From Fimbriimonadaceae bacterium (lineage in GTDB: Bacteria; Armatimonadota; Fimbriimonadia; Fimbriimonadales; Fimbriimonadaceae), in contig JAHCHO010000013.1 in the NCBI GenBank assembly GCA_026129685.1, positions 1 through 64,000 on the forward strand: a DNA stretch of 64,000 nucleotides. Reading direction: 5' to 3'. Positions 1,590 through 33,586 of the stretch are shown here, piece by piece (within the stretch, counting starts at the first letter, position 1; the number at the start of each line of letters is the position of its first letter). The position numbers were made by a program, and so were the translations under genes. The notes beneath the pieces were generated by a model. That model ran no database searches. It worked only from the letters and a program-made list of their open reading frames with translations, and was not told the DNA's origin.

Positions 1590-2020
1590 GAGTCGCGCTC
1601 CGTCAGCGGCACCGACACCGAGTCGCAAGCCTCCCGGATCGATCGGAGTCGCTCCGGCGTAAGACCGGTCTCGGCGCACAACTCGTCTTCGGTCGGCGGT
1701 CGCCCGGTCGCCTCCGTGATGTCCCTCGCCGCCGACTCGACGAGCTTGCCGCAAGCTCTTAGGTACCTCGGCACCCGGACGGGCTGTGGCGCGACCTGAT
1801 CGAGGGTTCGCGACTTGCAGGAACCCCGGATTTTGCTCTCCAAGTACGCGGCCACGTCGCCCGACAGTCCACGACGCACCCAACCGTCGCACCCTTCGCA
1901 GAGCGCGACGTAGGCGGCGCTGAGCGCCTCGTCGCGATCCAACCGTTCCTTCCGGGCGACCTCTCCGGCGATCCGCTCCGCGAGAGGTCGGAACTTCTCC
2001 ATGAGTTCGGTCGCCGTCAA
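1586..2020 (-). CDS. Sigma-70-like protein lacking region 4
   Basis: This 144-aa protein looks like sigma-70 regions 2 and 3. Residues about 6-60 resemble region 2 (LAERIAGEVA, DEALSAAYVALCEG, AAYLESKIRG), and residues about 85-130 match region 3 (VPRYLR, then ITEATGRPPTEDELCAETG). No C-terminal -35-binding region 4 is present. The likely start is the TTG at 2020, which overlaps the primase TGA and follows a GGGGTGGGG ribosome-binding stretch. The ATG at 2002 is the alternative. A phage sigma-like protein made from the early operon could redirect host polymerase to the structural operon. That role is inferred from position. Confidence 0.7.
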   Translation of the reverse strand: MTATELMEKFRPLAERIAGEVARKERLDRDEALSAAYVALCEGCDGWVRRGLSGDVAAYLESKIRGSCKSRTLDQVAPQPVRVPRYLRACGKLVESAARDITEATGRPPTEDELCAETGLTPERLRSIREACDSVSVPLTERDS

Positions 2021-6707: not shown

Positions 6708-6816
6708 GGAGCCACTCCAGCAACACGGGGATCGCGAACAGCGCGATCAAGCCGAACACCCCGACGAGAATCCCCTCGAGGGCGTCGTCGAGAACGGCGA
6801 GAAGCGTGCGTTTCAT
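6700..6816 (-). CDS. 38-aa single-pass membrane protein
   Basis: This short protein (ATG 6816 overlapping the upstream TGA) is dominated by a hydrophobic helix (GILVGVFGLIALFAIPVLL, residues about 15-33) followed by EWLRG. It is the second gene of the leftward early operon. Its function is unknown. It could act as a superinfection-exclusion or membrane-modifying peptide, but nothing in the sequence decides this. Confidence 0.58.
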   Translation of the reverse strand: MKRTLLAVLDDALEGILVGVFGLIALFAIPVLLEWLRG

Positions 6817-7070
6817 GATTGACCTCGCAGGGCTTGGGACCACGCTGCGGAGCGCGGCACCAACACCCGATCCGTCGCTCCGAAGTGATGCTCCGTGACC
6901 CGGCGACACCGTTCCCGCTTCGCGTAGAAACTGGATCGGGTCACCCCGGCCCGCGTGCACAACGCCGTGATCGGGGTCGTGCCCGCCGCCGCGTCGTCGA
7001 ACAGGGCTTGCCACTGGTTCGGCGACAACTTCTCGGTCGAGTGATTCCAGAACATCCGTCGGATGGACAT
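6813..7070 (-). CDS. Small HTH protein, first gene of leftward operon
   Basis: The reading frame is open from 7109, but a good sigma-70 promoter overlaps its first codons (7080-7108), so the mRNA should begin near 7073. The practical start is ATG 7070 (85 aa, nearly leaderless) or ATG 7055. A homeodomain-like helix-turn-helix lies at SPNQWQALFDDA, then ITALCTRAGVTRSSFYAKR (roughly residues 15-50 of the 85-aa form). It occupies the place where lambdoid phages put an early regulator. It may be a Cro-like or anti-repressor protein. Confidence 0.68.
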   Translation of the reverse strand: MSIRRMFWNHSTEKLSPNQWQALFDDAAAGTTPITALCTRAGVTRSSFYAKRERCRRVTEHHFGATDRVLVPRSAAWSQALRGQS

Positions 7071-7079
7071 ACGACGAGA

Positions 7080-7108
7080 ATCATACACCGTCGCCTGGCG
7101 ATTGTCCA
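7080..7108 (-). promoter_or_regulatory. Leftward early promoter
   Basis: On the minus strand there is TGGACA (7108-7103), a 17-nt spacer and TATGAT (7085-7080), close to the sigma-70 consensus. The -35 box is part of an ACAAT operator-like half-site, so the LexA-like repressor should block it directly. It drives the 7-kb early/integration operon. Confidence 0.75.
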
Positions 7109-7120
7109 TACCATTGTCAA
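7101..7120. promoter_or_regulatory. Repressor operator between divergent promoters
   Basis: Two ATTGTC half-sites lie 12 nt apart: ATTGTCC (7101-7107) and ATTGTCAA (7113-7120). The second overlaps a TACCAT (7109-7114) that lines up with the TAGCAT -10 box of the 7900 promoter, so it is a likely -10 for the repressor's own rightward transcript. The -35 for that transcript is poor, as expected for an autoregulated gene. Confidence 0.6.
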
Positions 7121-7153
7121 CAGATCGTGCGAGAAACTCCCGACGATAACGAT

Positions 7154-7861
7154 ATGGACGAACGAATCTCCGTCGGAACGAAGGTGCGAAAGCTCGGCCG
7201 CGCGCTCGGGCTGAAGGGCGTCGAACTCGCGGAAGGGCTCGGTCTGGACCGGACCACGGTCTACACCTACGGTCGCCGACCCAACGCGAACCCCGCCCCC
7301 GCCGCCGTGGATCGCCTCATCGCGTGGCTGGCGAAGAACGGAAAGCCCGTCCCCGATCGCGGCTGGTTCTACGACGGCCGGGACACCGACCCCTCGTTCG
7401 TGGAAGCCCGCTCGACCTCGGGCCGTCCCGTGCAGTCCCTGCCGATGGTGCCCGTGCGCGTCGTGGGCCGGGTCGGCGCGGGACCGGGAGAGAACGACGA
7501 GGCCGACTACGAGCCGATCTACGTCCCCGCGAACCTGGGCACCGGGGCCGACCGCATCGCCCACCTGATCGAGGGGGACTCGATGATGCCCGCGCTCGAA
7601 CCCGGCGACGTGGCGGTGTTCCGGGAGACGAGACGCCCGATGGGCCGAAGGGCCTTCCTGCTCAAAAGCCCCGACGGTCGGTACCAGGTCAAGCGCGTCG
7701 TCTGGGAACAGGACCGCTTCGTCGGCCGGAGCCTCAACCCTCGGTACGAGGACGTTCCCCTCGACGACTACCAGATCGAAGGGATGCTCGTCGGTTTCTA
7801 CCGCTCCGTCGGCGGCTACGAGCGCATCGAGTACGACTTTTCCGGTCTGGTCTTCGAGTGA
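7154..7861 (+). CDS. LexA/CI-type phage repressor (XRE HTH + S24 peptidase)
   Basis: This 235-aa repressor maintains lysogeny. Residues 8-60 hold an XRE helix-turn-helix (VELAEGLGLDRTTVYTYG). Residues about 98-225 form an S24 LexA-like autoprotease with cleavage site Ala109-Gly110 (VGAG), catalytic Ser143 (GDSMMPALEPGD) and Lys180 (YQVKRVV) as the general base. Damage-induced autocleavage at 109/110 would release both flanking promoters, which carry ATTGTCAA sites. ATG 7154 is chosen because the upstream GTG at 7127 lies inside the operator region. A 73-bp piece covering exactly codons 93-117 is duplicated at 23,662. Confidence 0.92.
   Translation: MDERISVGTKVRKLGRALGLKGVELAEGLGLDRTTVYTYGRRPNANPAPAAVDRLIAWLAKNGKPVPDRGWFYDGRDTDPSFVEARSTSGRPVQSLPMVPVRVVGRVGAGPGENDEADYEPIYVPANLGTGADRIAHLIEGDSMMPALEPGDVAVFRETRRPMGRRAFLLKSPDGRYQVKRVVWEQDRFVGRSLNPRYEDVPLDDYQIEGMLVGFYRSVGGYERIEYDFSGLVFE
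7431..7503 (+). repeat. 73-bp repeat, copy 1 (inside repressor)
   Basis: This segment matches 23,662-23,734 at 72 of 73 positions. It encodes the linker and autocleavage site of the repressor. See the second copy. Confidence 0.95.
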
Positions 7862-7881
7862 CCGCTCGGAACAAAGATGGA

Positions 7882-7934
7882 CGATTGTCGTCACGCCCCT
7901 TGACAATCGTCCGGTTTGTCAGTAGCATTGTCAA
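7882..7934 (+). promoter_or_regulatory. Rightward early promoter with operators
   Basis: TTGACA (7900-7905), a 17-nt spacer and TAGCAT (7923-7928) form a strong sigma-70 promoter. It is embedded in operator half-sites: GATTGTCG near 7883, TTGACAAT (7900-7907), TTTGTCAG near 7914 and ATTGTCAA (7927-7934). The second and fourth form a perfect 8-nt inverted pair covering the -35 and -10 boxes. This is the expected arrangement for a promoter shut by the lysogenic repressor. Confidence 0.8.
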
Positions 7935-7965
7935 CACGTCTCGCGAGAGACGGGGATAACGAACA

Positions 7966-8295
7966 ATGCTCACCGAACGAACCAAAGCGCTGATCGAGGC
8001 TCTCGGTCAGTCCCCCGCCGAGATCAGGGTCCACGCCGAGGAGGCGAACGACACGTTCGCCATCGTCGTCGGCGGCTCCCTCGTCGAATCCACCGGCTCC
8101 GTCGTCGTGCGCGGCGCGGCGACCGCCGAGAGACTCGTCGAGTGCCTCGCCATCGTCGCCCAGATTTGCCTTCGACGACAAGAGCGCGCCCTCCGCGATT
8201 TGCAGACCGCCTTCTGTCCTCCTACTCCCGGCCCGAATTGCGGGCCGGGAACTTCTTTCCCCACCGCTCCAACCGCAACCCCGGAAGGGTCGTAG
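7966..8295 (+). CDS. First gene of rightward early operon, hypothetical
   Basis: This 109-aa protein is not recognised. Residues 1-80 look like a compact alpha/beta fold (IRVHAEEANDTFAIVVGGSLV, VVVRGAATAERLVECLAIVAQIC), and residues 82-109 are a Pro/Thr-rich tail whose codons contain a perfect terminator-like hairpin. It lies directly behind the repressor-controlled promoter, where a cro-like or immunity gene would be, but no DNA-binding motif is visible. Confidence 0.65.
   Translation: MLTERTKALIEALGQSPAEIRVHAEEANDTFAIVVGGSLVESTGSVVVRGAATAERLVECLAIVAQICLRRQERALRDLQTAFCPPTPGPNCGPGTSFPTAPTATPEGS
8227..8258 (+). terminator. Intragenic terminator-like hairpin
   Basis: A 9-bp perfect stem, CCCGGCCCG (8227-8235) and CGGGCCGGG (8241-8249), with a 5-nt loop, is followed by a short pyrimidine run (CTTCTTTCC). 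It lies in the C-terminal codons of the preceding ORF. It may attenuate readthrough into the rest of the rightward operon, or mark an older gene end. Confidence 0.5.
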
Positions 8296-8377
8296 CGGGC
8301 TCCTCCTATTCCCCAAGGCGCGAGGGTTGCGGCGAGAGCCTCCCGAGCGCCTCGGCCCTTCCCCTTGTAAGGTTCCT

Positions 8378-9484
8378 ATGGCAATCCGAATCACCGAGTG
8401 CTTCGTCCGATCCGACCTCTCCGTCATGGCGAGCGTCGTGATGTCCCTCCTTCTCGACCACCACATCAAGAAGCCCGACGAACCGATGGAGGTGTCCGAC
8501 CTCGTGAGCGCGGTGCAGAAGCCCCGCGAGGCGATCCTCCATGCCCTGACCGAACTGAGCGAGTGCAAGATGCTCGCCGACCTCGGCGACCCCGAGACGC
8601 TCGACTCGTTCACCGTGGACGCGCTGACTATTTCGGTCTGCCGCCAACAGGACGCTTTGCCGTTCGACGCCCCGACCCCAAGCCCTAAACCGCGAGGCGA
8701 GACCGGCATCGAACACGACTTTGTGTTCGGCGTCGAACACCGCGCCGAGATCGCCTACGACGATGAGGGCTACGTCTTGGAGGTGTTTCGTCTGGAGGAC
8801 GACGACGAGCCTCGGGTCTTTGTGGACACGTATGCCAACAGCGACGACGCCTGGGAGGCCTGGGACGACTTTCGGGGGGCGTTCACGAAACGAACCGTCT
8901 ACAACGTCGATGGCGCACCTTACGTGTTGCGTCGCGACACCGACCCCTGGACGATACGGAACTCCGACGACGAAACGGTGTTCGTCGCGACCTCCGAGGC
9001 CGAGACTGGTCGGTGGGAGGAGGTCAAGGCGTGGTACGAAGCCCAGACCGCCGTCAGGCCCGTTCGCTCCATCGGAGTCTGGTTGCGAGAGCTGGCCGAC
9101 GCCGCCAAGCGTCGCCTCGACGACGGCCCCTACGAGGGCTTCGCCGTCGTCGTGGTATCGGAGGACGCGGTGAACGAACTCCGAGAGGAGTACCTCCTTC
9201 GCGAACACGACGAGTATCTTATCTGCGAGGAGGAGGCGGTCGCGATTCGCGCGGAGGACGGCGGGCTGGAGTGGCCGGGGGCGTTCGACCGCAATCTCCT
9301 GGTGCGCCGCGCCAAGGCTTTCGCCCAAAGCACCGGTTCCGTCTCCCTCTCCAAACTCCATCGTCGATTCGACCTGGACGACGCGACCGCCGAATGGGTG
9401 ATCGGGCAGCTGATCGCCGAGAACGTGGTCGGTTTCTTCGCCGACGGCGACCCCGACAAGACCTGCGAGGCGATCGAGGTCTAG
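8378..9484 (+). CDS. Phage protein with C-terminal FtsK-gamma-like domain
   Basis: This 368-aa protein starts at ATG 8378 with TAAGG upstream. The N-terminal 80 residues look like a helical/winged-helix region (MASVVMSLLLDHHI, VSDLVSAVQKPREAILHAL). The middle is acidic and beta-rich with no family recognised. The last 65 residues (AFDRNLLVRRAKAFAQ, VSLSKLHRRFDLDDATAEWV, IGQLIAENVVG) resemble the FtsK gamma winged-helix domain, which reads short oriented DNA motifs. The protein could bind phage DNA or connect to dimer-resolution sites. Its role is unknown. Confidence 0.75.
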   Translation: MAIRITECFVRSDLSVMASVVMSLLLDHHIKKPDEPMEVSDLVSAVQKPREAILHALTELSECKMLADLGDPETLDSFTVDALTISVCRQQDALPFDAPTPSPKPRGETGIEHDFVFGVEHRAEIAYDDEGYVLEVFRLEDDDEPRVFVDTYANSDDAWEAWDDFRGAFTKRTVYNVDGAPYVLRRDTDPWTIRNSDDETVFVATSEAETGRWEEVKAWYEAQTAVRPVRSIGVWLRELADAAKRRLDDGPYEGFAVVVVSEDAVNELREEYLLREHDEYLICEEEAVAIRAEDGGLEWPGAFDRNLLVRRAKAFAQSTGSVSLSKLHRRFDLDDATAEWVIGQLIAENVVGFFADGDPDKTCEAIEV

Positions 9485-19933: not shown

Positions 19934-20746
19934 CTAGGAGATACGGCTAACGCTTTGCCCGAGGGCGTCCGCGATCCGTTTACGGGTCGCCTCGTAAGGA
20001 CTCGTCGGGCGCTCTTCCTCCTTCGGCGGAGGTGGCGGCGGGGGAGACTCGTCTTTCCTGGGTTCCGCCTTCGGAGCGACCCGCTTCTGTCGGGCGAGTT
20101 CCGGGCCGACCACGAACTCCTCGTAGGCCCGCACGCCGAACTCCGGCGTGTAGATCGCCAGGTCGTTCCCGTCGAGGCCGTCCGCCTCGATCAGCCGTCC
20201 CATCGCTTTCAGCACGTCCCGCTTCTCGGGAGACACCCCGTGCTGCCGGTTGACCCGGTTGACGACCCGGCCCGCCAAGTCGTCGAACAACCGGTTCGTC
20301 ACCTGGCGGAAAGCGTCCATCGCCTGGTCCCTCTCCTCGGAGAGTTCGCGAAACCGAGGATGCGCCTCGACGACCGCCTCGTAACCCTCGTCGAGCGCCT
20401 TCGCCAAGAGCTTCTCGAACTCCTGTCGCTCCTGGTCCAGCTTGGCCCGCTCGTCGGCGAGCGTCGCCTCGAACGCCTTCCGCTCCTCCGCGAGGGCCTG
20501 AGTTTTCTTGGTGTAGTCGGCGTGGCGAAGCCGATCGGCGCGCTCTTCCGCCTCGGCGTCCTTGGCCTCTTCCTTGGTTTCCTCTTTGGGCTCCTCTTCC
20601 TTGGGAGCCTCCTCGGTTTTGGCCTCGGGTTCTTCGACCTTCGGCGGGGTCAGGGCTTGCGCGATGGCGTCGCGAACGGCAGAGGTGGGGGTCGGCGCTT
20701 CCGTGTTCCCGATGGGAGTGGTCGCGCCTTCTTCGGTTTCATTCAT
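19934..20746 (-). CDS. Capsid scaffolding protein
   Basis: This 270-aa protein is acidic in its first 65 residues (EEAPKEEEPKEETKEEAKD) and strongly coiled-coil from about 70 to 150 (KKTQALAEERKAFEATLADE). It has a poly-Pro stretch near 235 and a basic C-terminal tail. This composition and the portal-scaffold-capsid gene order are typical of phage scaffolding proteins, which guide procapsid assembly and then leave. ATG 20746 overlaps the portal stop by 8 nt. Confidence 0.85.
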   Translation of the reverse strand: MNETEEGATTPIGNTEAPTPTSAVRDAIAQALTPPKVEEPEAKTEEAPKEEEPKEETKEEAKDAEAEERADRLRHADYTKKTQALAEERKAFEATLADERAKLDQERQEFEKLLAKALDEGYEAVVEAHPRFRELSEERDQAMDAFRQVTNRLFDDLAGRVVNRVNRQHGVSPEKRDVLKAMGRLIEADGLDGNDLAIYTPEFGVRAYEEFVVGPELARQKRVAPKAEPRKDESPPPPPPPKEEERPTSPYEATRKRIADALGQSVSRIS

Positions 20747-22508
20747 TGGGGGTTTCCTGCGGGGTCGCGGCGTTGTTCGGGTCTCCCGAGTCGCCTCCCG
20801 CCTGTTGGGCGGCCATCGCCGCCGCTTGCCGCATCGCCAGTTCCCGGGGATCCATGAGACCGCGCTCCTGAGGATCGTACACCCCTAGGTCGCGATAGAG
20901 GGCTTCCGCCGCCTTGAGCGGGTCCACCGCCCCGAGCTGGACGAGCGGCAAATCGATCTCCAGGAACTCGCGCTTGCGCTCCTCGTTGCGCCGAGTCCTG
21001 GTCTGGAACTGAAGGCCGGTCTCCGCCACCTGAAGCGACACCGGTTCGCGCAACATCGGCGCGATGGGGAACACGTCCGTCTCGAACATCCCCTGCCGAA
21101 GCGGAATCCGTCGCGACTTGCGGTCCCAGAGCGCCCCGATCTGGCGAAGCTTGTGGCCCATGTCCACCAGGAACACCGAGTACCGCTTCCGCGTGTGCCG
21201 CGCCTGGACGCCCGACTGGTCCGCGAACTCCTCGACCTCGAACCGGGTCCGCTCACCCGGCATCATCTGGCCCCGCTTGTAGTCGTTCATGCCCGTCGAG
21301 GTGTTCGTCTCCTGGAGCATGATGTCGCGGGCCACCAGCCACGAGTTCGGAATCTCGGCGGCGGGCAACCGGTGGATGTTCTTCTCGATGTCCTCCAGAC
21401 CCCGGTTCAGAATCACCTTTCCGACCTCGTCGAGGCTCTTGCCCTGGCGAATCATCTCCAGGTGCTGAGGCTCCATGCCGATCGCCGAGAGCAGCGTCAC
21501 CGGCTTGCCGTTCACCACCGTGTTCCCGATGGCCTCCTCGATGTGCTGAAGCAGGGTCGCCAGCGGGCGGTGAAAGTCGAACTTGCTCGTAGGGCGACGC
21601 GAGGACGGCAGCGCGATCTCGGACCACGAGCAGACCGGCATCGCCCCAAACGGGTTCGGACCCGCCTTCGGGTCGCTCCGGTTGAACAGCGTCGGCTCGT
21701 CCACCCTCTCGTACTTGCCGTCGTCCGCCAGCCGAAACGCGATCCCCTCGCCCCGCCCGATCCCGCCGAGGAACAGGAAGTGATCGAACTCGGTCCAGAA
21801 CGACCACTCGACCACCGACTCCGCTTGGCGCTCGACCTTCCTCCCGGCCGACCAATGGACCCGGATTCGCGAGCCGAACCGCTCGATCTCGTCGTTCGAG
21901 ACCAGCTTGCCGTACTTCCGGCGCACCTCGATCGGATGGAGGCGCGTTCGCACGAAGCACCACTCCCAATCCGAGACGTGACGGTGGATCGGGTCTCCCA
22001 TCAGGTCCAGCGGGTTCACCCGCCAAACGTTCGGACCTCCGTAACGGTCCATCCCGAGCTGGACCGTGCCGATGCCGCAGACGCCCAGGTCGATCGCCGC
22101 GTCTAGCATCTTCGTCTCGAAGTCGTTCTCCTCCCAGAGATGTTCGAGGTACGCCCGGTTGAACTCCCTCAGGAACGGGTCGGGGTGGACGAAGTTCCAG
22201 TCGGGCGTCGTCGCCGTCGTCGCGATGGCGTTGACTCTGGCGTCCTGGAACATATGGTTCTGGACCCCGTCGCGCATGTCGGCCGGTTCCACGTCGGGGT
22301 AGTCCGAAACCTCCAGCGGGTTGCGCTTGACCCCCGCGACCGAGAACGCTCCCGCCGCCGTCGCCTCGCGGTAGTAGCCCGCCGCGAGAGTCTGCTGTCG
22401 GAACATCGCGTCGTATCGGTCGTCGTCCACGCTCTGGCGCGCCAGGTCGCGCACCTCGCTCAAGCGTAGGCGCTTCGGTTCGTCCACCCGGAAGAAGGCG
22501 TTGTTCAT
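20739..22508 (-). CDS. Portal protein
   Basis: This 589-aa protein starts at ATG 22508, overlapping the zinc-ribbon gene's stop. It resembles podovirus-type portals: RYDAMFRQQTLAAGYYREAT near the N-terminus, the DWEWCFVRTRLHPIEVRRKYG segment (split by strand changes), an acidic/aromatic core, and the helix with NTSTGMNDYKRGQ then MMPGERTRFEVEEFADQSG (about residues 405-440) that is typical of portal crown/stem regions. The C-terminal tail is rich in Ala, Gln and Met. It forms the dodecameric DNA channel and the packaging motor's docking ring. Confidence 0.85.
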   Translation of the reverse strand: MNNAFFRVDEPKRLRLSEVRDLARQSVDDDRYDAMFRQQTLAAGYYREATAAGAFSVAGVKRNPLEVSDYPDVEPADMRDGVQNHMFQDARVNAIATTATTPDWNFVHPDPFLREFNRAYLEHLWEENDFETKMLDAAIDLGVCGIGTVQLGMDRYGGPNVWRVNPLDLMGDPIHRHVSDWEWCFVRTRLHPIEVRRKYGKLVSNDEIERFGSRIRVHWSAGRKVERQAESVVEWSFWTEFDHFLFLGGIGRGEGIAFRLADDGKYERVDEPTLFNRSDPKAGPNPFGAMPVCSWSEIALPSSRRPTSKFDFHRPLATLLQHIEEAIGNTVVNGKPVTLLSAIGMEPQHLEMIRQGKSLDEVGKVILNRGLEDIEKNIHRLPAAEIPNSWLVARDIMLQETNTSTGMNDYKRGQMMPGERTRFEVEEFADQSGVQARHTRKRYSVFLVDMGHKLRQIGALWDRKSRRIPLRQGMFETDVFPIAPMLREPVSLQVAETGLQFQTRTRRNEERKREFLEIDLPLVQLGAVDPLKAAEALYRDLGVYDPQERGLMDPRELAMRQAAAMAAQQAGGDSGDPNNAATPQETPNE

Positions 22509-22918
22509 GCGACTCTCATCGAGACCCGAACCGCCTCGGCCACCGCCCGCTCCGTCTCGGGCTTGATCGCGATCTCGTGCGGCTTGGGAACGACCCCGAC
22601 CGCGCACTCCTCGGGCGACTTGCGGCGGTCCCCGAACCAGTTGCTACAGGCTCTCGTCGTCGCCAATCCCGCCTTCACCATCTGCTCGTCGCTCATTCCC
22701 TTAGGGTTGTTGGGGTTCGGCCGCTGAAACTCTTCCAGGGCGATTGCGTGTTCCGCGTGGTTCACCGCACGGTGGCATCTTGGGATCAGAACGGCGGGCA
22801 TCGTCAGAACCTTCGCGGTCTCCTCCCCGCAAGCGCAGACCGGCGGCGGGCAACCGATCGGGAAGAAGTCCTCGATCCGTTCCCCGCACCCCGGACACTC
22901 GAACACGTAGAGCGGCAA
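22505..22918 (-). CDS. FmdB-type zinc-ribbon protein
   Basis: This 137-aa protein begins at TTG 22918 just after the previous stop, with GGGGGAAG upstream. The first 40 residues form a zinc ribbon: YVFECPGCGERIEDFF, then the CACGEE knuckle. This is the FmdB/putative regulatory zinc-ribbon pattern often found near phage portal genes. The rest is variable and contains two further Cys. A nucleic-acid or protein-binding role is likely, but the specific function is unknown. Confidence 0.75.
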   Translation of the reverse strand: MPLYVFECPGCGERIEDFFPIGCPPPVCACGEETAKVLTMPAVLIPRCHRAVNHAEHAIALEEFQRPNPNNPKGMSDEQMVKAGLATTRACSNWFGDRRKSPEECAVGVVPKPHEIAIKPETERAVAEAVRVSMRVA

Positions 22919-23548: not shown

Positions 23549-23624
<76 letters not shown>

Positions 23625-25859: not shown

Positions 25860-26642
25860 CTAGCCCGCGTCGGCTCGGAGCGCCGTTGTCGCGAACTCGG
25901 CCTCCCGGTACGGGCTCGTCCAGGACGTGCAGAACCGCCGTTCGGCGCGGGGTCGCCCGGCCAGAGATCGAGTTGGATCGGCAAGTACGGCGGCTCTTGT
26001 CGTGTTCGGAATGCCCGAAACGACGACGAGAAGGTACCTCGATCGACTCGCCAGGGCGATTCTCCATTCGAGGTCAGTGAACAACAGGTTGCCACTCACG
26101 GTGGTGAGGCCCTTGATCTCGTACATCAGCGATCCGCTCTGATTCCGAAAGTCGTAGCCGCACGCCTCGTTCCGCGTGTCCACCAGTTCGGAACGGGGTA
26201 GGCCCACGAGCGAAAGGCAATGCTCCTGAAAAACGCGCTCGGCGAACGCCCCGGTGCGTAGCCGGTCCGCCACGTGCGCCAACCGGTCGGGAGGCGTCGC
26301 GATTGCCTCGTCCACGGCTTGAACCGCAGTCCCACGTCCTTCGATGACATCTTGAACCAGCGACTCCAGCGCAGCGTCCGAAACTCCCTCCATCTCGTGC
26401 ATGAGCGCCACCAAGGGTCGCCGGGCGGCGCGACCGCTCCAACCCCGTCGAGCGTTGTCAAAGAACGGGTCGAACTCGTCCCTGAGGGCCTTGATGGACT
26501 TTGGCCTCTCCCCCAGGAGCCCGCCCGCCTTCTCAAACGCCTCATCCCAAGTCCGACAGCCCAGGATCACCAACGATCGGGCGTCGAGGCGGCTCATGGC
26601 ATACCCGATCAGCAGGGCGGCCGGGCCGATCCGTTTCTCCAT
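25860..26642 (-). CDS. DUF3883-type (PD-(D/E)XK nuclease-like) protein
   Basis: This 260-aa protein has a C-terminal domain that resembles DUF3883: VDTRNEACGYDFRNQSG, then MYEIKGLTTVSG and FTDLEWRIA, with D and E-x-K placed as in PD-(D/E)XK-like folds (about residues 160-200). The N-terminal 95 residues include RDEFDPFFDNARRGW, a motif often found in predicted restriction or nuclease proteins. It begins 36 nt after the subtilase stop, on the same strand, so it may belong to the sigma/CHAT operon and serve as an effector. Function inferred. Confidence 0.7.
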   Translation of the reverse strand: MEKRIGPAALLIGYAMSRLDARSLVILGCRTWDEAFEKAGGLLGERPKSIKALRDEFDPFFDNARRGWSGRAARRPLVALMHEMEGVSDAALESLVQDVIEGRGTAVQAVDEAIATPPDRLAHVADRLRTGAFAERVFQEHCLSLVGLPRSELVDTRNEACGYDFRNQSGSLMYEIKGLTTVSGNLLFTDLEWRIALASRSRYLLVVVSGIPNTTRAAVLADPTRSLAGRPRAERRFCTSWTSPYREAEFATTALRADAG

Positions 26643-26678
26643 GTCTTTTGGCGATCATAGCATCGCGGGCAGCGACCC

Positions 26679-27872
26679 CTACCGACCCCGGCGCAACGCC
26701 CGGAGATACGCGTCCAGCTTCGTCACGTTGAGCTTGACCCCGAGTTCGCTCCGGTGGTTCGGGTTCGCCCCGTCCAACGAGTCGCCGGTGGCCTCCAGCG
26801 CCCGTCGAAGCACCTCCGGCAGCTTCGGCCCGTAACGGCGCACCACGTTCGCGAGTGCGCCCGTCACCAGCGGAGTCGCGAACGACGTACCCGACCACGC
26901 GGCCGCCCCGCCACGCCACCATGGTCCCGCCAAGCCGGTCGCGGGCGCCGACACGCGCACGTGATTGCCCCAGTTGCTGAACGGGGCTTTCGTGTCGTCC
27001 GGTGACAGCCCCGCCACGGAGACCACCTTGCGGATCTCCGCCGGGGAGAGGATGAGGTTCGCACCGTTGTTCCCCACCGCCGCGACCACCACGACGTTCC
27101 GCTCCTCGACCCAGTCGAGGACGTCGCTCATCGCGGGAATGCTTTCGGCGCCCAGGCTCACGTTCACAATCTCGACCCCGTTTGCGACCGCGTAGGCCAT
27201 TCCTTTGATCACCGTCCAAGCCCTCCCGAATCCGTCGCTGTCTGCCACGCGGACGATAACGAACTCGACCTTTGGGCAGACTTGCTCAACCAACCCCGCC
27301 ACCATCGTGCCGTGCCCCACCGCTTGGTCCGGAACGCCGTTGCCGTTGGTGTCGGTCCCCGACGGAATGTCGTACGCGGGAGACCCCGTCTCGACCACGT
27401 TCAGCGACGCCACGACCTTCGGCCAGAGACGCCCCACGAGCGGCGAAAGACCGGTGTCAAGGATCCCGACCCGCACCCTTCGCCCCGGAGCGAGCGCCGC
27501 CGCCGCGTTCCAGTGAACCTGTGCGAGCATGTTGGCGTTAAGGGCGTAGAGCGTGTTCGGGTCTCCGACCGCCGCGATGGTGCTCGCCAACGAGCCACCC
27601 GCGTGCTCCGGCGTCGAAAGCGCGTCATCGTCCTCCGCCCAGACGATGCGCGCATCGAGTCGCATCGCCGCCTGGATCGCCGCCACGTCCGACCCTGGCG
27701 GCGCGACAAACACCACGAACGGCGCGGGCGAGGTGGTGTCCGCCAGAGTGATGGTGTAGTCGCTCGCGATCGCCAACGCGTCCGCGCCCGGCTGAATCCG
27801 CGCCAGGATCCGACCCTGACCGGCGCCGAGCGCTGCGGAAAGACCCGCTATCAGCAGAAAGAGTGATTTCAT
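26679..27872 (-). CDS. Secreted subtilisin-like serine protease (S8)
   Basis: This 397-aa protein has a signal peptide (MKSLFLLIAGLSAALGAG), an inhibitor-like propeptide region (to about residue 105) and an S8 catalytic domain. Asp is in VGILDTGLSP (about 136), His in VGHGTMVAG (about 184), the oxyanion Asn in AAVGNNG (about 267) and Ser in GTSFATP (about 329). ATG 27872 overlaps the TGA of the CHAT gene (ATGA), so the two are translationally coupled. An exported protease directly coupled to a cytoplasmic CHAT protease-like protein is a notable arrangement. Confidence 0.93.
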   Translation of the reverse strand: MKSLFLLIAGLSAALGAGQGRILARIQPGADALAIASDYTITLADTTSPAPFVVFVAPPGSDVAAIQAAMRLDARIVWAEDDDALSTPEHAGGSLASTIAAVGDPNTLYALNANMLAQVHWNAAAALAPGRRVRVGILDTGLSPLVGRLWPKVVASLNVVETGSPAYDIPSGTDTNGNGVPDQAVGHGTMVAGLVEQVCPKVEFVIVRVADSDGFGRAWTVIKGMAYAVANGVEIVNVSLGAESIPAMSDVLDWVEERNVVVVAAVGNNGANLILSPAEIRKVVSVAGLSPDDTKAPFSNWGNHVRVSAPATGLAGPWWRGGAAAWSGTSFATPLVTGALANVVRRYGPKLPEVLRRALEATGDSLDGANPNHRSELGVKLNVTKLDAYLRALRRGR

Positions 27873-30487
27873 GCGTGAATGTCCTCCTCTCGGTAGCCCG
27901 CAAAGAGGGAAAAGGGACCCCAGAAGTACGGGTGGGGGTATCGCTCGCGGACAGCGCGACGCGCCGCCGCCATGGCCACGTGTAGGCCCTCGTCTGCAAG
28001 AGACGCATCGTAGAATCCGCGGGCGAAGACGCGCGCGGCCTCGTCGTCCACGGACCAGGCATTGGCGATCACCGCCGTCGTCCCCGTGGCCAGGAGCGCC
28101 CGCACCAGGCCGTCCGGTTCGGACCGGTTCTGAAGGCTGAGACGGCCGGTTTCGCAAGCGTCGAGAAACGCGAACCTTGCGCGAAGGCCGAGCGTGGCCA
28201 AGTCCGCCGCCAGAAGCGGACCGTCATCGAGGAAGATCGCCGAGAACATTGGGTTCCCCGGGTTGAGCCCGGCGTGGCCCGCCACGTGAAGCACGTCCCA
28301 CTCCTGCGCCCGCCCGATTTCGTAAAGCCCGGCAACGGTCCGACACACCGTCACCCCCGCGAAACGCGCCCGCAAGTCTTCGACCTCGCGCTCGATGTGG
28401 GGCAAAGGGTCACGGCTGCCGACAACCACCAGGACCCGAGCCTCCCGGTGAATCACGGGTTCTCCCGCCCCAAACGAGGGGTGCATCGCGACTTCGACTT
28501 CGCGCGCTTCCATCGCCCCCAGGAGTCCCCAAGGCACGGACCACAGCAGTCCGTCTGGAGCCACCCTCTCGCCCGTCGGCAGGTGCTCACGGAGCCATTC
28601 CAGACGGCGCCACACCCTTTCGACCGACGAGTGGGGAACCGACAGGTCGAACCACAACCACCTTAGACTGCTTTCGAGTTCGCTCCTTAGACCGACCGAG
28701 CGCGAGACTCGGTCCTGGTGGATTCGGTAAAGGTCGTCGCCAAGCAAAACGAAGGTCGTCGTCGCTCCAGAGCCCGTGGAACGGCGTCCACCGACGAGTA
28801 CGCGCTCGACGCACTCCGTCCAGCGGCGACGCAACGCCCCCAGCATCGCCGGGTTACCGGCGCGTCGTGCTCCTTCTGCGTCCAGCGACTCCTCTGTGGC
28901 CTCTGCGATGCGTTGTCGAAGGACGACCAGTTCGTCAAGGAACCCGGCGGGCAACGCGTCTCGCCTCGCCGAGACGATCTCGTCCACTAGCGCGACCGAC
29001 CGACTGCTTCCGATCGCATCGACCGCCTCCCGAATGCGCGTCGGCGTCGGACGAGCGAGGAGTTCCCGCAGATAGGCGCAGACCGCCTCGTTCTTACCGC
29101 CGAAGTACGCCTGCCGGGCGGCGACCGAGGTCCTCAGCGCACGTTCGTCCAACATCGCCCGGAACATGCGTCGGTAGGCGGTCAACCGCCGGGGGCCCCG
29201 CCGTCCCTCCGCTTCCAGCCAGTACGGGCGCCATTCATCGGCCACGTATCGGCGTCGCCCCAGAATCCGGCGGGCCTCTTGGAGGTCCGCATCCGCCGTA
29301 CGGCCCATGCGTGTGCGGGCGGCAGCGGTCAACAGCCTCGCTCGAATGTGAAACGCCCCCGGGGTCAAGAAACTCAGTCGTCCAAGCGCCTCCAAGCCGC
29401 GGCCGAGCGCCCCGTGAAGGTCGCCCGACTCCAAAGCCGCTTCGCCCAGCGCCAGGGCCGCCGCCGCGATCCACAGGGCGTTCCCTTTCGACCTGGCCCC
29501 CCGGTACGCCCGCAAAAGGTGCCCCCGCGCACCCATCGGGTCGCCCGCATTCCGTGCCAACTCCCCGAGACCGATCTCTGCGATCAGGGCGTTAAAGGGC
29601 AGCGACCGGAGGGCGGGCGACGCCAAAGCCGCCATGTACGCGTCTTTTGCTTCCGCATCGAGCCCCAACTGACGATAGGCGTCGCCAAGGAACTGCTCGA
29701 CGCGCGCGTGCTCCGCGCTCGACTCCTCGAATGCCGGACGTAGCTCGAGAAGCCGTCGCCGTGCGCCATCGTGCCGACCCCCAATCGCCTCCGCCTGCGC
29801 CAGGGTCAACTCGGACAGGTTCGCGTAGTGCGTCAGGCCGAGTTCCGCGAACGTGTCGCGCGCCGAGGTCGCCAAGACGACACATGCACCGACGTCCCCG
29901 AGAAGCAGCGCCGCCGCCCGACCGAGCATGGCCGCCGCGCGTTCGACGCGCGATTCGACGGGCAACCGTTCGAGGGCCCTCTGGTACCACCGTCCCGACT
30001 CGCGGTGCCGGTCGGCCCAAACCAATGCGTTCGCCACGTTCAGCGCGACCCGCCCCGCTTGAGCCACGTCTCCACATTGGACAAGACGGCGGGACAAGTC
30101 GCGCCCGTGTCGCACCGCCTCTTCGAACTGACCCGCGCGCGCCAGGGAGTCGACCGACCCAACTCGCATCGCGAGTTTCTCGCCAGGGTCGTCGGCGATC
30201 CGCGAAGCCTCGAGAAACGATGCCGCACTCTTTGCCCATCGGCAGTCGAGTCTCTCGCCAATCGCGCGAACTCGGATCGCGTAGGCCGGGTCCGCGGCGC
30301 GGCGAAAGACGGGTCGCCATAGCCGGGCCAGCGATCGGGCGGTCGCCGGATCACGACCGAGTCGCTCTGTGACTTCCATGAACAACGCCCGTCCCAGGCC
30401 ATTGGGATCGGCGTCGAGCAACGCCCGCTTGGCGCCGCCCGGGCCGACCGCCGCAAGTCTTGCGATCGCCTCAGCGGGATTCGTCAT
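27869..30487 (-). CDS. TPR-repeat protein with C-terminal CHAT protease domain
   Basis: This 872-aa protein has about 450 residues of TPR-like helical repeats (for example RVALNVANALVWADRHRES and ARVEQFLGDAYRQLGLDAEA). A linker follows, then a CHAT domain from about 600 onward with the caspase-like dyad: His in LHVAGHAGL (about 737) and Cys in FLDACETGR (about 776). CHAT proteins are clan CD cysteine peptidases. TPR-CHAT proteins include Csx29 of type III-E CRISPR. No transmembrane segment is seen. Its start overlaps the end of the 172-aa gene by 17 nt. Confidence 0.92.
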   Translation of the reverse strand: MTNPAEAIARLAAVGPGGAKRALLDADPNGLGRALFMEVTERLGRDPATARSLARLWRPVFRRAADPAYAIRVRAIGERLDCRWAKSAASFLEASRIADDPGEKLAMRVGSVDSLARAGQFEEAVRHGRDLSRRLVQCGDVAQAGRVALNVANALVWADRHRESGRWYQRALERLPVESRVERAAAMLGRAAALLLGDVGACVVLATSARDTFAELGLTHYANLSELTLAQAEAIGGRHDGARRRLLELRPAFEESSAEHARVEQFLGDAYRQLGLDAEAKDAYMAALASPALRSLPFNALIAEIGLGELARNAGDPMGARGHLLRAYRGARSKGNALWIAAAALALGEAALESGDLHGALGRGLEALGRLSFLTPGAFHIRARLLTAAARTRMGRTADADLQEARRILGRRRYVADEWRPYWLEAEGRRGPRRLTAYRRMFRAMLDERALRTSVAARQAYFGGKNEAVCAYLRELLARPTPTRIREAVDAIGSSRSVALVDEIVSARRDALPAGFLDELVVLRQRIAEATEESLDAEGARRAGNPAMLGALRRRWTECVERVLVGGRRSTGSGATTTFVLLGDDLYRIHQDRVSRSVGLRSELESSLRWLWFDLSVPHSSVERVWRRLEWLREHLPTGERVAPDGLLWSVPWGLLGAMEAREVEVAMHPSFGAGEPVIHREARVLVVVGSRDPLPHIEREVEDLRARFAGVTVCRTVAGLYEIGRAQEWDVLHVAGHAGLNPGNPMFSAIFLDDGPLLAADLATLGLRARFAFLDACETGRLSLQNRSEPDGLVRALLATGTTAVIANAWSVDDEAARVFARGFYDASLADEGLHVAMAAARRAVRERYPHPYFWGPFSLFAGYREEDIHA

Positions 30488-30989
30488 GGGTCGCCTCGGA
30501 ACCGGGTGGGATTGGGATCTCCCGGTCCGAAAGCCGAAGCACGAATCCCGTACCGTTCAAGGATGCCGCTTCGAACTCGAAACGACCCTCGTCCGGTTCG
30601 AGATCCCGATCCGGTAGTTCGACCCAGGCGCCCGCCGGACCTTCGCCGAGCACCCGCCACCCTTGCCCCTCACGCTCGTACCCCACGCGCACCGTCACGT
30701 CCTCTGCCTCGTACATCACCTGAAAAGCGGTCGCCGCCAGGCCCCGCGCGCCCGCCAAGCCAAGACCGAATGCCTTTGGCAGAATGCGCCTGGCCACCGG
30801 AAACACCGCCTCCGCCCGCTCGACCGAATGATCGGGAGCGTCGTAGAAGCCCGCCCGAAGCGCGGATGCCATCCGAACGAACTGCTCGGACCGTAACGCG
30901 TCCCGTTCGGACATCGCTTCCGGCTTTGGCCCCTCGTCGAAAACCCAAGCGATCAGAGGTTCCTCGTGGTGGTTGTGTTGTCGCTTCAT
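30471..30989 (-). CDS. 172-aa protein between ECF sigma and CHAT genes
   Basis: The start is placed at ATG 30989; an earlier codon at 31013 is possible. The N-terminal 45 residues are charged and His-rich (MKRQHNHHEEPL). The middle has AEAVFPVARRILPKAFGLGL and GARGLAATAFQVMYEAEDVT, and the C-terminal half looks like a small beta-sandwich (VRVGYEREGQGWRVLGEGP, then GFVLRLSDREIPIPP). No zinc finger or membrane helix of a classical anti-sigma factor is seen. Position suggests a sigma-binding regulator or protease substrate. Confidence 0.7.
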   Translation of the reverse strand: MKRQHNHHEEPLIAWVFDEGPKPEAMSERDALRSEQFVRMASALRAGFYDAPDHSVERAEAVFPVARRILPKAFGLGLAGARGLAATAFQVMYEAEDVTVRVGYEREGQGWRVLGEGPAGAWVELPDRDLEPDEGRFEFEAASLNGTGFVLRLSDREIPIPPGSEATHDESR

Positions 30990-31047
30990 GATGTCGATCG
31001 CCGACCGTGTCACCTACGATGAGGCACACCCTCGCCCGCTTGATACG

Positions 31048-31626
31048 TCAGCCGACAAAGAACCCCTCCGCTTCGAGCGTCCGCCGCAGTTTCTCCAGGC
31101 AGCGAGCCCGTGTGGGACCGATCGAGCCGATCGGAATCCCCAGCGCGGTGACCACTTCCTGGTACGCGAGCCCCTCCACGTACAGGGCCGTCAAGAGGTC
31201 TCGGCATTGGGCGCCCAGCCCCCGAACACCCTGCCGAACCCAGTCCGCCTCGCTCGCGCGAATCGCCGTCTCGTCCGCTCGCTCCTCATCGTCCTGCAGC
31301 ACCTCGTCGAGTGCGCGCGCGTCGTCGTCCACCGTCACGTACCTTCCGGAAAGACGGCGAACCCGGTAGCTCTCGCGCGCGGCGGTCGTCGCCACCCATT
31401 TGGGCAACGCTTGACCGTCCTCGATCGCGTGCAGCGAACGGTAAAGCGCGACGAACGTTGCCTGAAAGACGTCGCCCGCGTCGTCCTCACCCATCCCCAT
31501 ACGCCGAGGAATGGAGTAGACGAGCGACCGAAACCGCTCGATCAGCTCGCTCCAAGCTCGCGAATCGCCTCGGCGGCAGCGCGCCAACAGCCTCTGCAGA
31601 TCGCCGCTTTCGGCATGATTCGGCAT
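31048..31626 (-). CDS. ECF-type RNA polymerase sigma factor (CHAT operon)
   Basis: This 192-aa sigma factor has region 2 in residues about 12-80 (LIERFRSLVYSIPRRMGM, DDAGDVFQATFVALYRSL) and region 4 in about 130-180 (LTALYVEGLAYQEVVTALGI, then RARCLEKLRRTL). It heads the leftward operon with the 172-aa protein, TPR-CHAT protein and subtilase. It may control that operon or a stress regulon. The first stretch before ATG 31626 is short and divergent from the secreted 127-aa gene, so the promoters lie in the 92 nt between them. Confidence 0.9.
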   Translation of the reverse strand: MPNHAESGDLQRLLARCRRGDSRAWSELIERFRSLVYSIPRRMGMGEDDAGDVFQATFVALYRSLHAIEDGQALPKWVATTAARESYRVRRLSGRYVTVDDDARALDEVLQDDEERADETAIRASEADWVRQGVRGLGAQCRDLLTALYVEGLAYQEVVTALGIPIGSIGPTRARCLEKLRRTLEAEGFFVG

Positions 31627-31718
31627 TTCCTGAATCCCAGTGTATCACGGCTCCCACGACCTGACTCTTGCCCAACGTTCGCCCAACGAGGTGGACATCG
31701 AACCGAGGTACTGAACCC

Positions 31719-32102
31719 ATGAAAGGACGAATCTCTATCGCCATCACCCTCTTCGCCCTCGCCATCGCCGTCGCCGTGGCCCAGTCCACTCGAATCGAGC
31801 TTCGCGCCAAGATGCGCGACGGGGCGGCCGAGTACTCCTCCAAGTACAAGCAGCGCGATACCCGAGGCCGGGTCCGCGGCGAACTCGAAGTCGAGATCCA
31901 GAACGGCGCGCCCAACACGGAGTACGTGTTCCTGATTCAGGGCATCGCCCCGATCGTGCTCGAGACCGACGCCGCCGGCATGGCCGCCAACGAGGCGCAC
32001 CTCCGCGCGGGGGCCCTTCCCCCGATCGTCGCCGGTACGGCGATCGCCGTGGCCGACCCCGAGGGCAATGTCCTCGCGTCCAGCACCTTCCAGCCCCGCT
32101 AG
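31719..32102 (+). CDS. Small secreted beta-rich protein
   Basis: This 127-aa protein has a signal peptide (RISIAITLFALAIAVAVAQS) followed by an about 100-residue beta-rich domain (RGRVRGELEVEIQNGAPNT, PIVLETDAAGMAANEAHL, IAVADPEGNVLASSTF). The layout is like small exported proteins that accompany extracytoplasmic sigma factors. It lies between two ECF sigma genes, diverging from one and followed by a terminator before the other. Function unknown. Confidence 0.75.
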   Translation: MKGRISIAITLFALAIAVAVAQSTRIELRAKMRDGAAEYSSKYKQRDTRGRVRGELEVEIQNGAPNTEYVFLIQGIAPIVLETDAAGMAANEAHLRAGALPPIVAGTAIAVADPEGNVLASSTFQPR

Positions 32103-32150
32103 AAGGGCTCCCGACTTGTCCGCGCTCCAATAATTGTCTAGTGAGACCTC

Positions 32151-32187
32151 GACCCCCGTCCGCCTCATGGAACGGGGGTCGCCTTTT
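32151..32187 (+). terminator. Terminator after secreted protein gene
   Basis: GACCCCCGT (32151-32159) pairs perfectly with ACGGGGGTC (32172-32180) around a 12-nt loop, followed by GCCTTTTCTC. It separates the secreted-protein gene from the second sigma gene. Confidence 0.8.
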
Positions 32188-32265
32188 CTCCCAGAAGCCC
32201 CACAAAGTCCTATCCGCGCCGCCCCGGTGTCACTCTATCCGTACAGAGACCGAGGACCAAGCGCC

Positions 32266-32859
32266 GTGCCCATTCCCGATTCGCTTTCACCGCCCGACGA
32301 AACCCTCGTCCGGTGGGCGCAATGGGGAAGGCTCGACGCGTACGACGTCCTGGTTCAAAGGCACCGGCTGTCCGTGCTGGCGATCGTGAGACCGCTCGTC
32401 GGAACCCGGGAGGTCGCGGAAGACGTGGTTCAAGACGCATTTCTGGCCGGCTATCGCAACATTGGGACGCTTCGCGAGCCCGACCGGTTCGGGGCGTGGC
32501 TCATCGCCATCGCCCGCAGGCGGGCCCTCTTGGCGTCCGGCCAAGAGCGTCGCGACCGTACCGTCCTCCAGGAAGCCCTCGACGAGGCGGTTCTGAACCA
32601 GAGTCGGGCCATCGGTCAGAACGAGACGGGCGTCCTTCGACGGGCCGAACTCGAGCGCGTCTGGGCCGCTCTTCGAGCCCTGCCCGCCGAACTGCGAGAG
32701 CCCCTCGCCCTCTACGCCCTTCGCGAACTCAGCCTTTCGCAGATCGCCGGCTTGCTCGACGTTCCGCTCTCGACCGTGAAATGGCGCATGCACGAGGCGC
32801 GCCGCCGACTCCGGCGGCAACTCGGCGAACCAGGAGACGACAACCATGTCCAACATTGA
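32266..32859 (+). CDS. ECF-type RNA polymerase sigma factor (second)
   Basis: The start at GTG 32266 (GAGGACC upstream) gives 197 aa. The open frame reaches back to 32134 but crosses the terminator. Region 2 is in residues about 20-90 (DAYDVLVQRHRLSVLAIVR, VAEDVVQDAFLAGYRNIG) and region 4 in about 130-190 (LALYALRELSLSQIAGLLDV, STVKWRMHEARRRLR). It is co-transcribed with the 246-aa protein, whose start overlaps by 14 nt. Confidence 0.9.
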   Translation: MPIPDSLSPPDETLVRWAQWGRLDAYDVLVQRHRLSVLAIVRPLVGTREVAEDVVQDAFLAGYRNIGTLREPDRFGAWLIAIARRRALLASGQERRDRTVLQEALDEAVLNQSRAIGQNETGVLRRAELERVWAALRALPAELREPLALYALRELSLSQIAGLLDVPLSTVKWRMHEARRRLRRQLGEPGDDNHVQH

Positions 32860-33586
32860 CCGCGCCGCTCTTCGGCGCATGCTCACCAACCTCGCCGATA
32901 TGGCGGACGACGCGACCCTGACGGGCAAACTCCGTGACGCCGCCCAAGAAGCCGCCAAGAAGTACAACACCGTCCTGGCCACCCTCCATGCCGAAGCCGA
33001 TCTCCCCGAGGGGCTCTTCGAACCCCTGCCCGAGGACGCCGGGTGGGACCGGCTCGGCGTGGACGCGCGACTCCTCGCCGGCTACTTGGACGACGACCGC
33101 AAAGGACGTCACCGTCACGGTCCCGAGGACGCTCCGGGCGACCTCGGCGCGCTCGTCGCGCTCGCCCCGTTCCTGAACTCCGACGACTTGGCTCGCCTGG
33201 TCGAAGAGCGCATTGCGGATGGACTCCCGTTCGACGAGGGCATCCTCATTGCGCTCGCCCCCTTTGTGGGGTCCGACGCGCTGGGACGTATGATACGGAC
33301 GCGCTTGCGGCGCGGCCGGTCGCCCGGGGCTGTCCCGGTCGCTCCCGAAGCCCCGAAGGCTCCCGAGGCGCCGCACGAGCCCGTCGCCGTCGTCCCGCCG
33401 GCCCCCGTCCGGCCCCCGGTGCCTGATCCCGTGGACGAGCTCGAGGCCGAAGCCGCCCGACACGTTCCCCCGGGACCCGATCTCGAGACCTTGCTGACGA
33501 GTCTCCGCGATCCCTACCTCGACGCCGGCCACCGGCAGGAGATTCTCGACCAGATCGCCGTCGTCATGGCGACGAAGCAGGACTAG
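32846..33586 (+). CDS. Hypothetical partner of second sigma factor
   Basis: This 246-aa cytoplasmic-looking protein follows the sigma gene with a 14-nt overlap. Residues 1-150 are helical and charged (RRMLTNLADMADDATLTGKL). Residues about 155-190 are a Pro/Ala/Glu-rich linker, and the C-terminal 45 residues are helical (DLETLLTSLRDPYLDAGHRQ). There is no membrane helix or zinc motif. The location is that of an anti-sigma factor, so this is a reasonable but unproven guess. Confidence 0.7.
   Translation: MSNIDRAALRRMLTNLADMADDATLTGKLRDAAQEAAKKYNTVLATLHAEADLPEGLFEPLPEDAGWDRLGVDARLLAGYLDDDRKGRHRHGPEDAPGDLGALVALAPFLNSDDLARLVEERIADGLPFDEGILIALAPFVGSDALGRMIRTRLRRGRSPGAVPVAPEAPKAPEAPHEPVAVVPPAPVRPPVPDPVDELEAEAARHVPPGPDLETLLTSLRDPYLDAGHRQEILDQIAVVMATKQD

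Follow-up and report, generated by a model that had tools for sequence, protein, structure and literature searches.

The stretch of DNA analysed here, called the window below, comprises 64,000 nucleotides (nt) of contig JAHCHO010000013.1 from a Fimbriimonadaceae bacterium of the phylum Armatimonadota (assembly GCA_026129685.1). On its minus strand lie four coupled genes, which encode a sigma factor of the extracytoplasmic function (ECF) type, a small protein of 172 amino acids (aa), a TPR-CHAT protein, and a subtilase, and which are considered here as a candidate proteolytic switch of transcription. The sigma factor (31048..31626, 192 aa) matches Sigma70_r2 (E-value 2.8e-8) and TIGR02937 (sigma70-ECF, 4.4e-20), and its profile A3 finds SigW (5wuq_A, 2.6e-16) as best match in the Protein Data Bank (PDB). 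The gene of the 172-aa protein (30471..30989), a putative soluble class I anti-sigma factor, starts 58 nt after the sigma gene and overlaps by 17 nt with the gene of the TPR-CHAT protein (27869..30487, 872 aa; CHAT 5e-31, TPR_12 4.5e-5). The CHAT domain of the latter spans residues 642-861 (28564-27905) and carries the catalytic residues His738 (CAC, 28274..28276) and Cys778 (TGC, 28154..28156). The exported-type S8 protease, i.e., the subtilase (26679..27872, 397 aa; Peptidase_S8 6.1e-30), overlaps the CHAT gene by 4 nt; its triad D139/H187/S330 is in place, which makes it a member of Peptidase S8, and its N-terminus looks signal-like by eye, as do all 17 S8 starts that were inspected. A sequence-only reading of the locus had described these tightly spaced leftward genes, their two overlaps, and a DUF3883-type gene 36 nt behind them, and the coordinates bear this out.

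The grouping recurs well beyond this genome. When the 172-aa protein was used as query, 18 of 101 related genomes (the own genome included) gave a match, and 18 other places were fetched from 17 genomes. Fifteen of these show the order sigma-small-CHAT-S8, where small denotes the homolog of the 172-aa protein, one (L045) shows sigma-CHAT-small-S8, and in two (L037 and L040) the contig does not extend beyond the small gene. The CHAT gene of L045 is split over two overlapping frames (6772-8443), which points to either a frameshift or a misassembly. A search with a 19-member profile of the small protein, in which at most 11 candidates per genome were scored, matched 49 places in 46 of the 291 genomes of the phylum. 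Among 30 further loci fetched, the order sigma-small-CHAT-S8 is found in 17 (S8 being cut in L086), the CHAT gene precedes the small gene in eight (L087-L093 and L095), three are cut by contig ends (L094, L096, and L103), and two are not the unit. The latter are L102, which gave no match, and L104, a short contig on which the gene behind the sigma gene is of anti-sigma type, seems by eye to encode a membrane segment, and is accompanied by neither a CHAT nor an S8 gene. The 48 fetched loci thus comprise 32 in sigma-small-CHAT-S8 order, nine in sigma-CHAT-small-S8 order, five cut by contig ends, and two others. Because all four genes stand together in 41 of the 48 loci and five of the others are contig-cut, their co-occurrence, as read from these sequences, is more than chance. 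The sequence-only reading had asked whether the order recurs independently of the PhyH/CBM9 neighbours seen at this locus; these 41 loci and the clustering of neighbours described below answer that it does.

Since these counts all started from the small protein, a second search was run from the CHAT side. It returned at least 45 matches at E <= 1e-50 in 41 of the 291 genomes, a lower bound because three candidates were scored per genome and most CHAT proteins of the swapped order fall below the threshold. Forty-three of the 45 adjoin a small-protein gene, and the other two (G072 and G150) begin at contig ends, while a second contig in each genome carries the small gene at its end. Thirty-five, the window copy included, had already been seen beside a small gene; eight new places were fetched, and in all eight the small gene and the S8 gene adjoin the CHAT gene (S8 being cut in L136), with a sigma gene on the same strand within 0.7 kb in five. 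The general CHAT family is far wider than the unit and is found in 156 of the 291 genomes. Protein distances of the four members correlate with Pearson coefficients of 0.77-0.93 over 39 loci, uncorrected for shared descent; L045, L086, L094, and L104 as well as loci lacking any of the four genes were left out. Outside the phylum, seven CHAT loci from Bacteroidota and Ignavibacteria had, at the thresholds applied, no sigma factor, small protein, or S8 protease of the same families in their vicinity, and the small protein was not found in the six genomes that hold them. A plasmid search with the CHAT and S8 proteins gave distant matches only, and one with a single small protein (L035) gave none.

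Both proteases keep their catalytic residues in nearly all copies. H738 is present in 43 of 45 CHAT frames, being absent from a contig-cut copy and from one of the two frames of the broken L045 gene, and C778 is present in 44 of 45, being absent from a contig-cut copy, while the S8 triad together with Asn268 is kept in 43 of 44 S8 frames, the exception again being contig-cut. The S8 count takes in the second S8 copies of L042 and L083, and L131-L139 are left out of all these counts. Judged by sequence, the CHAT dyad and the S8 triad are therefore intact in every counted copy apart from those that are contig-cut or broken, which extends to these relatives the intact His/Cys dyad that had been noticed in the window copy.

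The 172-aa protein of the window, taken alone, has no Pfam match at E up to 1 and no NCBIfam match at E up to 0.1. A profile of 36 family members (A6), on the other hand, matches the anti-sigma-W factor RsiW (5wuq_C) at 5.9e-5; the match covers positions 9-75 and places the His/Cys motif in register. An N-terminal H-x3-C-x2-C motif is present in 18 of 48 family members, where shuffled sequences would be expected to give 0.005, and 14 of these 18 carry a Cys 22 residues upstream. When H-x4-C-x2-C is counted too, the zinc motif is found in 24 of 48 members with L104 included and in 27 of 55 with L104 left out. The zf-HC2 family matched at the N-terminus of five of ten chosen relatives (0.0031-0.044) and of one of eight more (0.0023), all below cut-off. 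In a second phylum, that of G294 (Ignavibacteria), 29 of 198 genomes match A6, through its first 90 positions only; the best matches of ten genomes were fetched, and all ten lie directly downstream of a sigma-factor frame, a count that has no random-gene control. Within the unit itself, the small gene follows the sigma gene in the 32 of 48 loci with the sigma-then-small order, at a distance of about 1.6 kb in two of them. Because of the match between A6 and RsiW, the zinc motif in relatives, and the sigma-adjacent matches in the other phylum, the 172-aa protein is very probably a soluble class I anti-sigma factor, although the zinc subtype is excluded for the window copy. Class I anti-sigma factors include non-zinc members, and groups that mix zinc and non-zinc members are known, according to the excerpt of PMC7406223 consulted. 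The proposal of the sequence-only reading that the small protein restrains the sigma factor thus gains support from homology, namely from the RsiW profile match and the sigma-adjacent genes.

In the AlphaFold2 (AF2) model of the 172-aa protein, which has a mean predicted local distance difference test score (pLDDT) of 82.4, three N-terminal helices are followed by a loop and a confident beta sandwich. The sandwich (residues ~86-168; 30486..30734, minus strand) is Ig-like according to VIA-align, with a best Z of 7.4 that is within reach of unrelated folds and with no match at Z >= 8. Some relatives show CarboxypepD_reg-type matches on this domain, each of them below cut-off. A fold search with the whole model gave a best Foldseek E-value of 0.033; the anti-sigma part was not among the matches, which is uninformative either way. 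No membrane helix is seen in the window protein by eye or in its AF2 model, an observation that is not based on a membrane predictor. A dodecin (4b2h_A) was the best match of A1, the 19-member profile, at 6e-5, and was rejected because the match runs from the loop into the first part of the beta domain, covers no whole domain, and weakens with more members (0.0033 with A6).

Locus L038 offers a view of the two proteins together, as its sigma and small genes share one frame and are parted by a single TGA. When read through this TGA, the one-chain model has a mean pLDDT of 90.1 and a predicted template modelling score (pTM) of 0.76; the anti-sigma helix blocks (residues 211-270) have mean pLDDT values of 92-96, with 83 for the last helix. 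The best Foldseek match of the sigma part is SigW of the SigW-RsiW complex (3.8e-4). The two sigma domains lie at a root-mean-square deviation (rmsd) of 10.6-13.4 Å from several solved sigma/anti-sigma complexes, and sigma factors bound to RNA polymerase are farther away (22-29 Å). For a contact between the sigma factor and the small protein, which in class I anti-sigma factors takes the form of helices packed between sigma domains 2 and 4, this model is supportive but not decisive.

A single residue stands out in the small protein. Arg82 (CGG, 30744..30746, minus strand) is the sole invariant column among 47 of 47 small proteins (L104 left out), whose median pairwise identity is 19%; the next best column, a Pro, is kept in 43. 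With the eight extra proteins from the CHAT side, of which L132 offered two nearby Args, the count rises to 55 of 55, and a fresh realignment of these 55 again gave 55 of 55 in three accurate modes of MAFFT. Arg82 is likewise the one invariant column in the alignments A1 (n=19) and A6 (n=36). Its context (n=47) reads Gly (31/47), Ala or Val (36/47), Arg, and then Gly or Ser (33/47). In the AF2 model, Arg82 sits in the loop that joins strands 70-75 and 88-95, ahead of the Ig-like domain; the mean pLDDT is 62 for residues 61-70, 59 for 71-80, and 72 for 81-90, and 93-98 for the blocks from 91 to 160. Arg82 can thus be regarded as a candidate P1 residue of a CHAT cleavage site, with the odds for its being the cut site falling a little short of even.

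CHAT proteins are of the caspase/separase kind. The CHAT domain profile finds a CHAT protein as best PDB match (8rot_B, 1.7e-7), then Csx29 entries, and matches separase (5fc2_B) at 4.3e-4; Peptidase_C50, searched at E up to 1, was found in 9 of 15 members (best 3.2e-4). Separase cuts after Arg and Csx29 does not, a difference that has been linked to separase D2151, whose equivalent in Csx29 is K670 (PMC9729208, seen as an excerpt). In a profile alignment, K670 of Csx29 stands opposite Arg819 of the window protein, a variable position. Four residues before it, Asp815 is invariant (16/16), and Csx29 has a Ser there. Taken with the absence of the separase Asp considered below, the evidence on the P1 preference is mixed, and therefore cleavage at Arg82 is something that we infer.

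The arrangement that we favor, with a probability of roughly 0.55, is that a cytoplasmic TPR-CHAT protease frees the ECF sigma factor by cutting its soluble anti-sigma factor and that the output consists of secreted products. The observed basis of this proposal consists of the conserved unit, the anti-sigma homology, the intact catalytic residues, and the invariant Arg; the binding of the sigma factor, the cleavage and its site, the signal, and the regulon are what we infer from it. The sigma factor would be held by the N-terminal anti-sigma helices of the 172-aa protein. Upon sensing a cytoplasmic signal with its TPR superhelix, the CHAT protein would switch on its caspase/separase-like dyad and then cut the anti-sigma factor after Arg82, in the loop that leads into the Ig-like domain, whereupon the inhibitor would fail or be degraded and the sigma factor would be released. 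The output would be extracytoplasmic, comprising the secreted subtilase and often a divergently encoded secreted protein. That the CHAT protein acts on the anti-sigma factor at all is, by our estimate, somewhat more probable than the complete scheme.

Several observations weigh against this scheme. In L131 the sigma gene is 3 kb off, in L134 it is divergent, and the stretch fetched for L139 shows none; it is also about 1.6 kb off in L097 and L099, which otherwise keep the sigma-small-CHAT-S8 order. The narrower profile A1 reaches RsiW at only 0.084, behind a dodecin; zf-HC2 matches only one of the 19 A1 members (0.26), and the window copy, like about half of the family, has no zinc ligands. 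The sigma domains of the L038 model deviate considerably from solved complexes, namely by 13.1 Å over 164 residues from sigmaE-RseA, by 13.1 Å over 135 from BldN, and by 10.6 Å over 142 from SigK. As to the cut site, Arg82 is aligned in only 47 of 55 proteins in the fast MAFFT mode, which misplaces the window row, the S1 Asp with which separase reads a P1 Arg is not conserved in these CHAT proteins, and an invariant Arg can be structural.

Around the unit, few genes recur. A divergent gene on the plus strand (31719..32102) encodes a small secreted-type protein of about 127 aa, counted from an ATG, and is a recurrent though not universal partner. Clustering of flanking frames from 43 loci and the window placed its family beside the unit in 13 of the 44 sources, namely the window, L028-L034, L039, L076, L079, L084, and L094; no Pfam match was found for this ~125-aa family in five relatives tested. 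A second secreted-type family of about 305 aa takes the divergent place in seven further loci, all with the CHAT gene before the small gene. Apart from these divergent genes and frames that overlap the unit's own genes, no other neighbour was found in at least five of the 44 sources. It is possible that the divergent secreted-type proteins are targets of the sigma factor or of the subtilase. A second S8 gene occurs near the unit in two loci (L083, 2602-3789, minus strand; L042, 2104-3288, plus strand). Just past the divergent gene of the window lies a second ECF sigma gene (32134-32859, plus strand), which overlaps an uncharacterised frame of 246 aa (32846-33586) that could be its regulator.

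The gene that trails the operon (25860..26642, minus strand) matches NOV_C (PF13020, 5e-6), of which DUF3883 is an older name. No match to it was found in the first 18 fetched loci. Six of 101 related genomes (the own included) gave a match, and clear relatives are found only in G002 (5e-45) and G024 (3e-34), where they lie on a different contig from the unit. A membership of this gene in the unit was ruled out by its absence from the loci and by the location of its clear relatives on other contigs, so that it is a neighbour only, and the suggestion of the sequence-only reading that it acts as an effector is not supported. Farther off, at about 2000-23624 of the window, phage genes are found, as four of ten tested frames match PHROGs (primase/helicase 2017-3876, RecT 5086-6600, scaffold 19934-20746, and portal 20739-22607). 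They end near a tRNA-Lys (23549-23624), which suggests a prophage beside this tRNA, and the operon lies outside the phage region.

Upstream of the sigma gene, a conserved promoter of the ECF type was considered and rejected; some loci share words like GTGATACA only a few bases ahead of the start instead. The word GTGATACA itself occurs in 7 of 39 upstream stretches, with starts chosen by rule and 11 loci without such a start left out. In several loci a similar word lies 10-20 bases before the sigma start, for example at about 31640-31655 on the minus strand of the window. From its sequence it looks like a housekeeping -10 element, as if the operon transcript were leaderless. As this word is housekeeping-like and not of the ECF type, no sigma regulon could be derived from it.

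Other explanations of the unit have to be weighed against proteolytic release by the CHAT protein. The anti-sigma factor might instead be released by ligand binding or by a zinc or redox change, with the CHAT protein acting on another substrate and with Arg82 being structural or in contact with the sigma factor. There are precedents in the soluble zinc anti-sigma factors ChrR and RshA, which are released by conformational change according to the portion of PMC8999054 consulted. The zinc ligands in 27 of 55 family members and the lack of a conserved P1-reading separase Asp fit this explanation too. Against it stand the adjacency of an intact-dyad CHAT gene to the small gene in 43 of 45 cases (the other two being at contig ends) and the fact that the half of the family without a zinc motif still keeps the CHAT gene; moreover, Arg82 lies in a loop of lower confidence, outside the domain core. 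We regard such a release as unlikely, though to be taken seriously. Far less credit can be given to the idea that the secreted subtilase is the sensor and acts outside, with the CHAT protein as a mere relay. The S8 gene does belong to the unit throughout and its triad is kept in every uncut frame, but an anti-sigma factor without a membrane helix (by eye and in the AF2 model) leaves the unit without a direct transmembrane relay.

Two further proposals change the role of the whole unit. There may be no anti-sigma factor at all, the CHAT protein and/or the subtilase keeping the sigma factor off by degrading it, as was proposed from gene context for the group ECF54 in the available part of PMC8999054. 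With a recognisable anti-sigma domain in the small-protein family, and with a subtilase whose signal-like start in the 17 copies listed makes it unlikely to meet a cytoplasmic sigma factor, this appears highly improbable. The unit might also be an anti-phage or suicide system, with the CHAT protein as defence sensor and the subtilase and the NOV_C protein as effectors. CHAT proteases do occur in type III-E CRISPR systems and are linked to gasdermins (PMC9729208, in the excerpt seen), the phage genes of the window are about 3 kb distant, and PADLOC gives weak matches (BovA 4.6e-5, subtilase 8.8e-10, IetS 4.1e-5, and TmtA 3.8e-5). These matches cover only the CHAT, S8, and NOV_C domains and hence look like shared domains. 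Since, in addition, the NOV_C gene is unlinked, the subtilase looks exported, and the neighbours that recur in at least five of 44 sources are only secreted-type genes and antisense frames, a role in defence is improbable.

The CHAT-driven release that we prefer likely has its closest mechanistic parallel in the Csx29-Csx30-CASP-sigma arm of type III-E CRISPR, without CRISPR, although the unit is not that system. In the excerpt of PMC10028731 available to us, the sigma inhibitor Csx30 is a substrate of Csx29, and the cut falls in a flexible loop of the Csx30 C-terminal domain. Both systems comprise a TPR-CHAT protein with a His/Cys dyad, a sigma inhibitor, and an ECF-type sigma factor. In contrast to type III-E, the fused gRAMP/Cas7-11 has no counterpart here, a secreted subtilase is present, and the predicted cut after Arg differs from the site in Csx30. 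The own genome has six RAMP matches, which are confined to contigs 11 and 15 and lie in separate frames of 327-693 aa; there is none on contig 5 or beside the operon. These RAMP genes (L140-L145) form two separate clusters, as in type III CRISPR loci. A Csx30 chain was not found when the small-protein profiles were searched against the PDB at E up to 10, though a distant relationship to Csx30 may exist.

Other known systems share parts of the unit. Like the zinc-binding anti-sigma (ZAS) factors ChrR and RshA, the small protein looks soluble and has an N-terminal anti-sigma domain, and ChrR also bears an extra C-terminal domain (PMC8999054, in part). The C-terminal domain here is Ig-like rather than a cupin, half of the family lacks the zinc motif, and a CHAT gene adjoins in every testable locus of the unit. 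RsiW and RseA are destroyed by proteases, as is proposed for the small protein, and RsiW is the nearest solved relative by profile; these two are membrane proteins cut in steps, as stated in the excerpt of PMC10028731, whereas the anti-sigma factor here looks soluble and its protease cytoplasmic. Unlike separase, the CHAT protein is bacterial, is fused to TPRs, and does not conserve the S1 Asp at the same place. By gene context, the unit resembles ECF54, for which a CHAT protein, a subtilase, and a carboxypeptidase-domain protein near the sigma gene were described, as far as the consulted part of PMC8999054 goes, without an anti-sigma factor and with proteolytic control of the sigma factor being proposed. 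A CHAT protein, a subtilase, and an ECF sigma factor share one context here as well. For the carboxypeptidase-domain protein, only the sub-threshold CarboxypepD_reg-type matches in the small proteins of some relatives correspond, and unlike in ECF54 the small protein carries an anti-sigma domain. The same source names Actinomycetota as the main home of ECF sigma factors controlled by proteolysis.

The unit had been called undescribed in the sequence-only reading. This has to be narrowed, since the context of CHAT, subtilase, and carboxypeptidase domain is published for ECF54; it stands insofar as the published interpretation, in the part of PMC8999054 consulted, assumes no anti-sigma factor. 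In the literature searched, part of which was judged by title and the start of the abstract, no recognisable anti-sigma role beside CHAT and subtilase was found except that of CRISPR Csx29-Csx30. As far as these searches show, what is new here is that the small protein is identified as an anti-sigma factor, that its family has an invariant Arg, and that the genes come in two orders; the gene context was known in outline. A broader idea, which at present must be called doubtful, is that a CRISPR-free, separase-like TPR-CHAT protease cutting after an invariant Arg is the general ECF54-type circuit and the module from which the Csx29-Csx30-sigma arm of type III-E was recruited. If the proposed mechanism is true, CHAT proteases outside CRISPR would gain a substrate together with a candidate cut site, and the ECF54-type operons, described without an anti-sigma factor in the excerpt of PMC8999054, would be explained. 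It would further suggest that the protease-sigma arm of Craspase was borrowed from an older cellular circuit.

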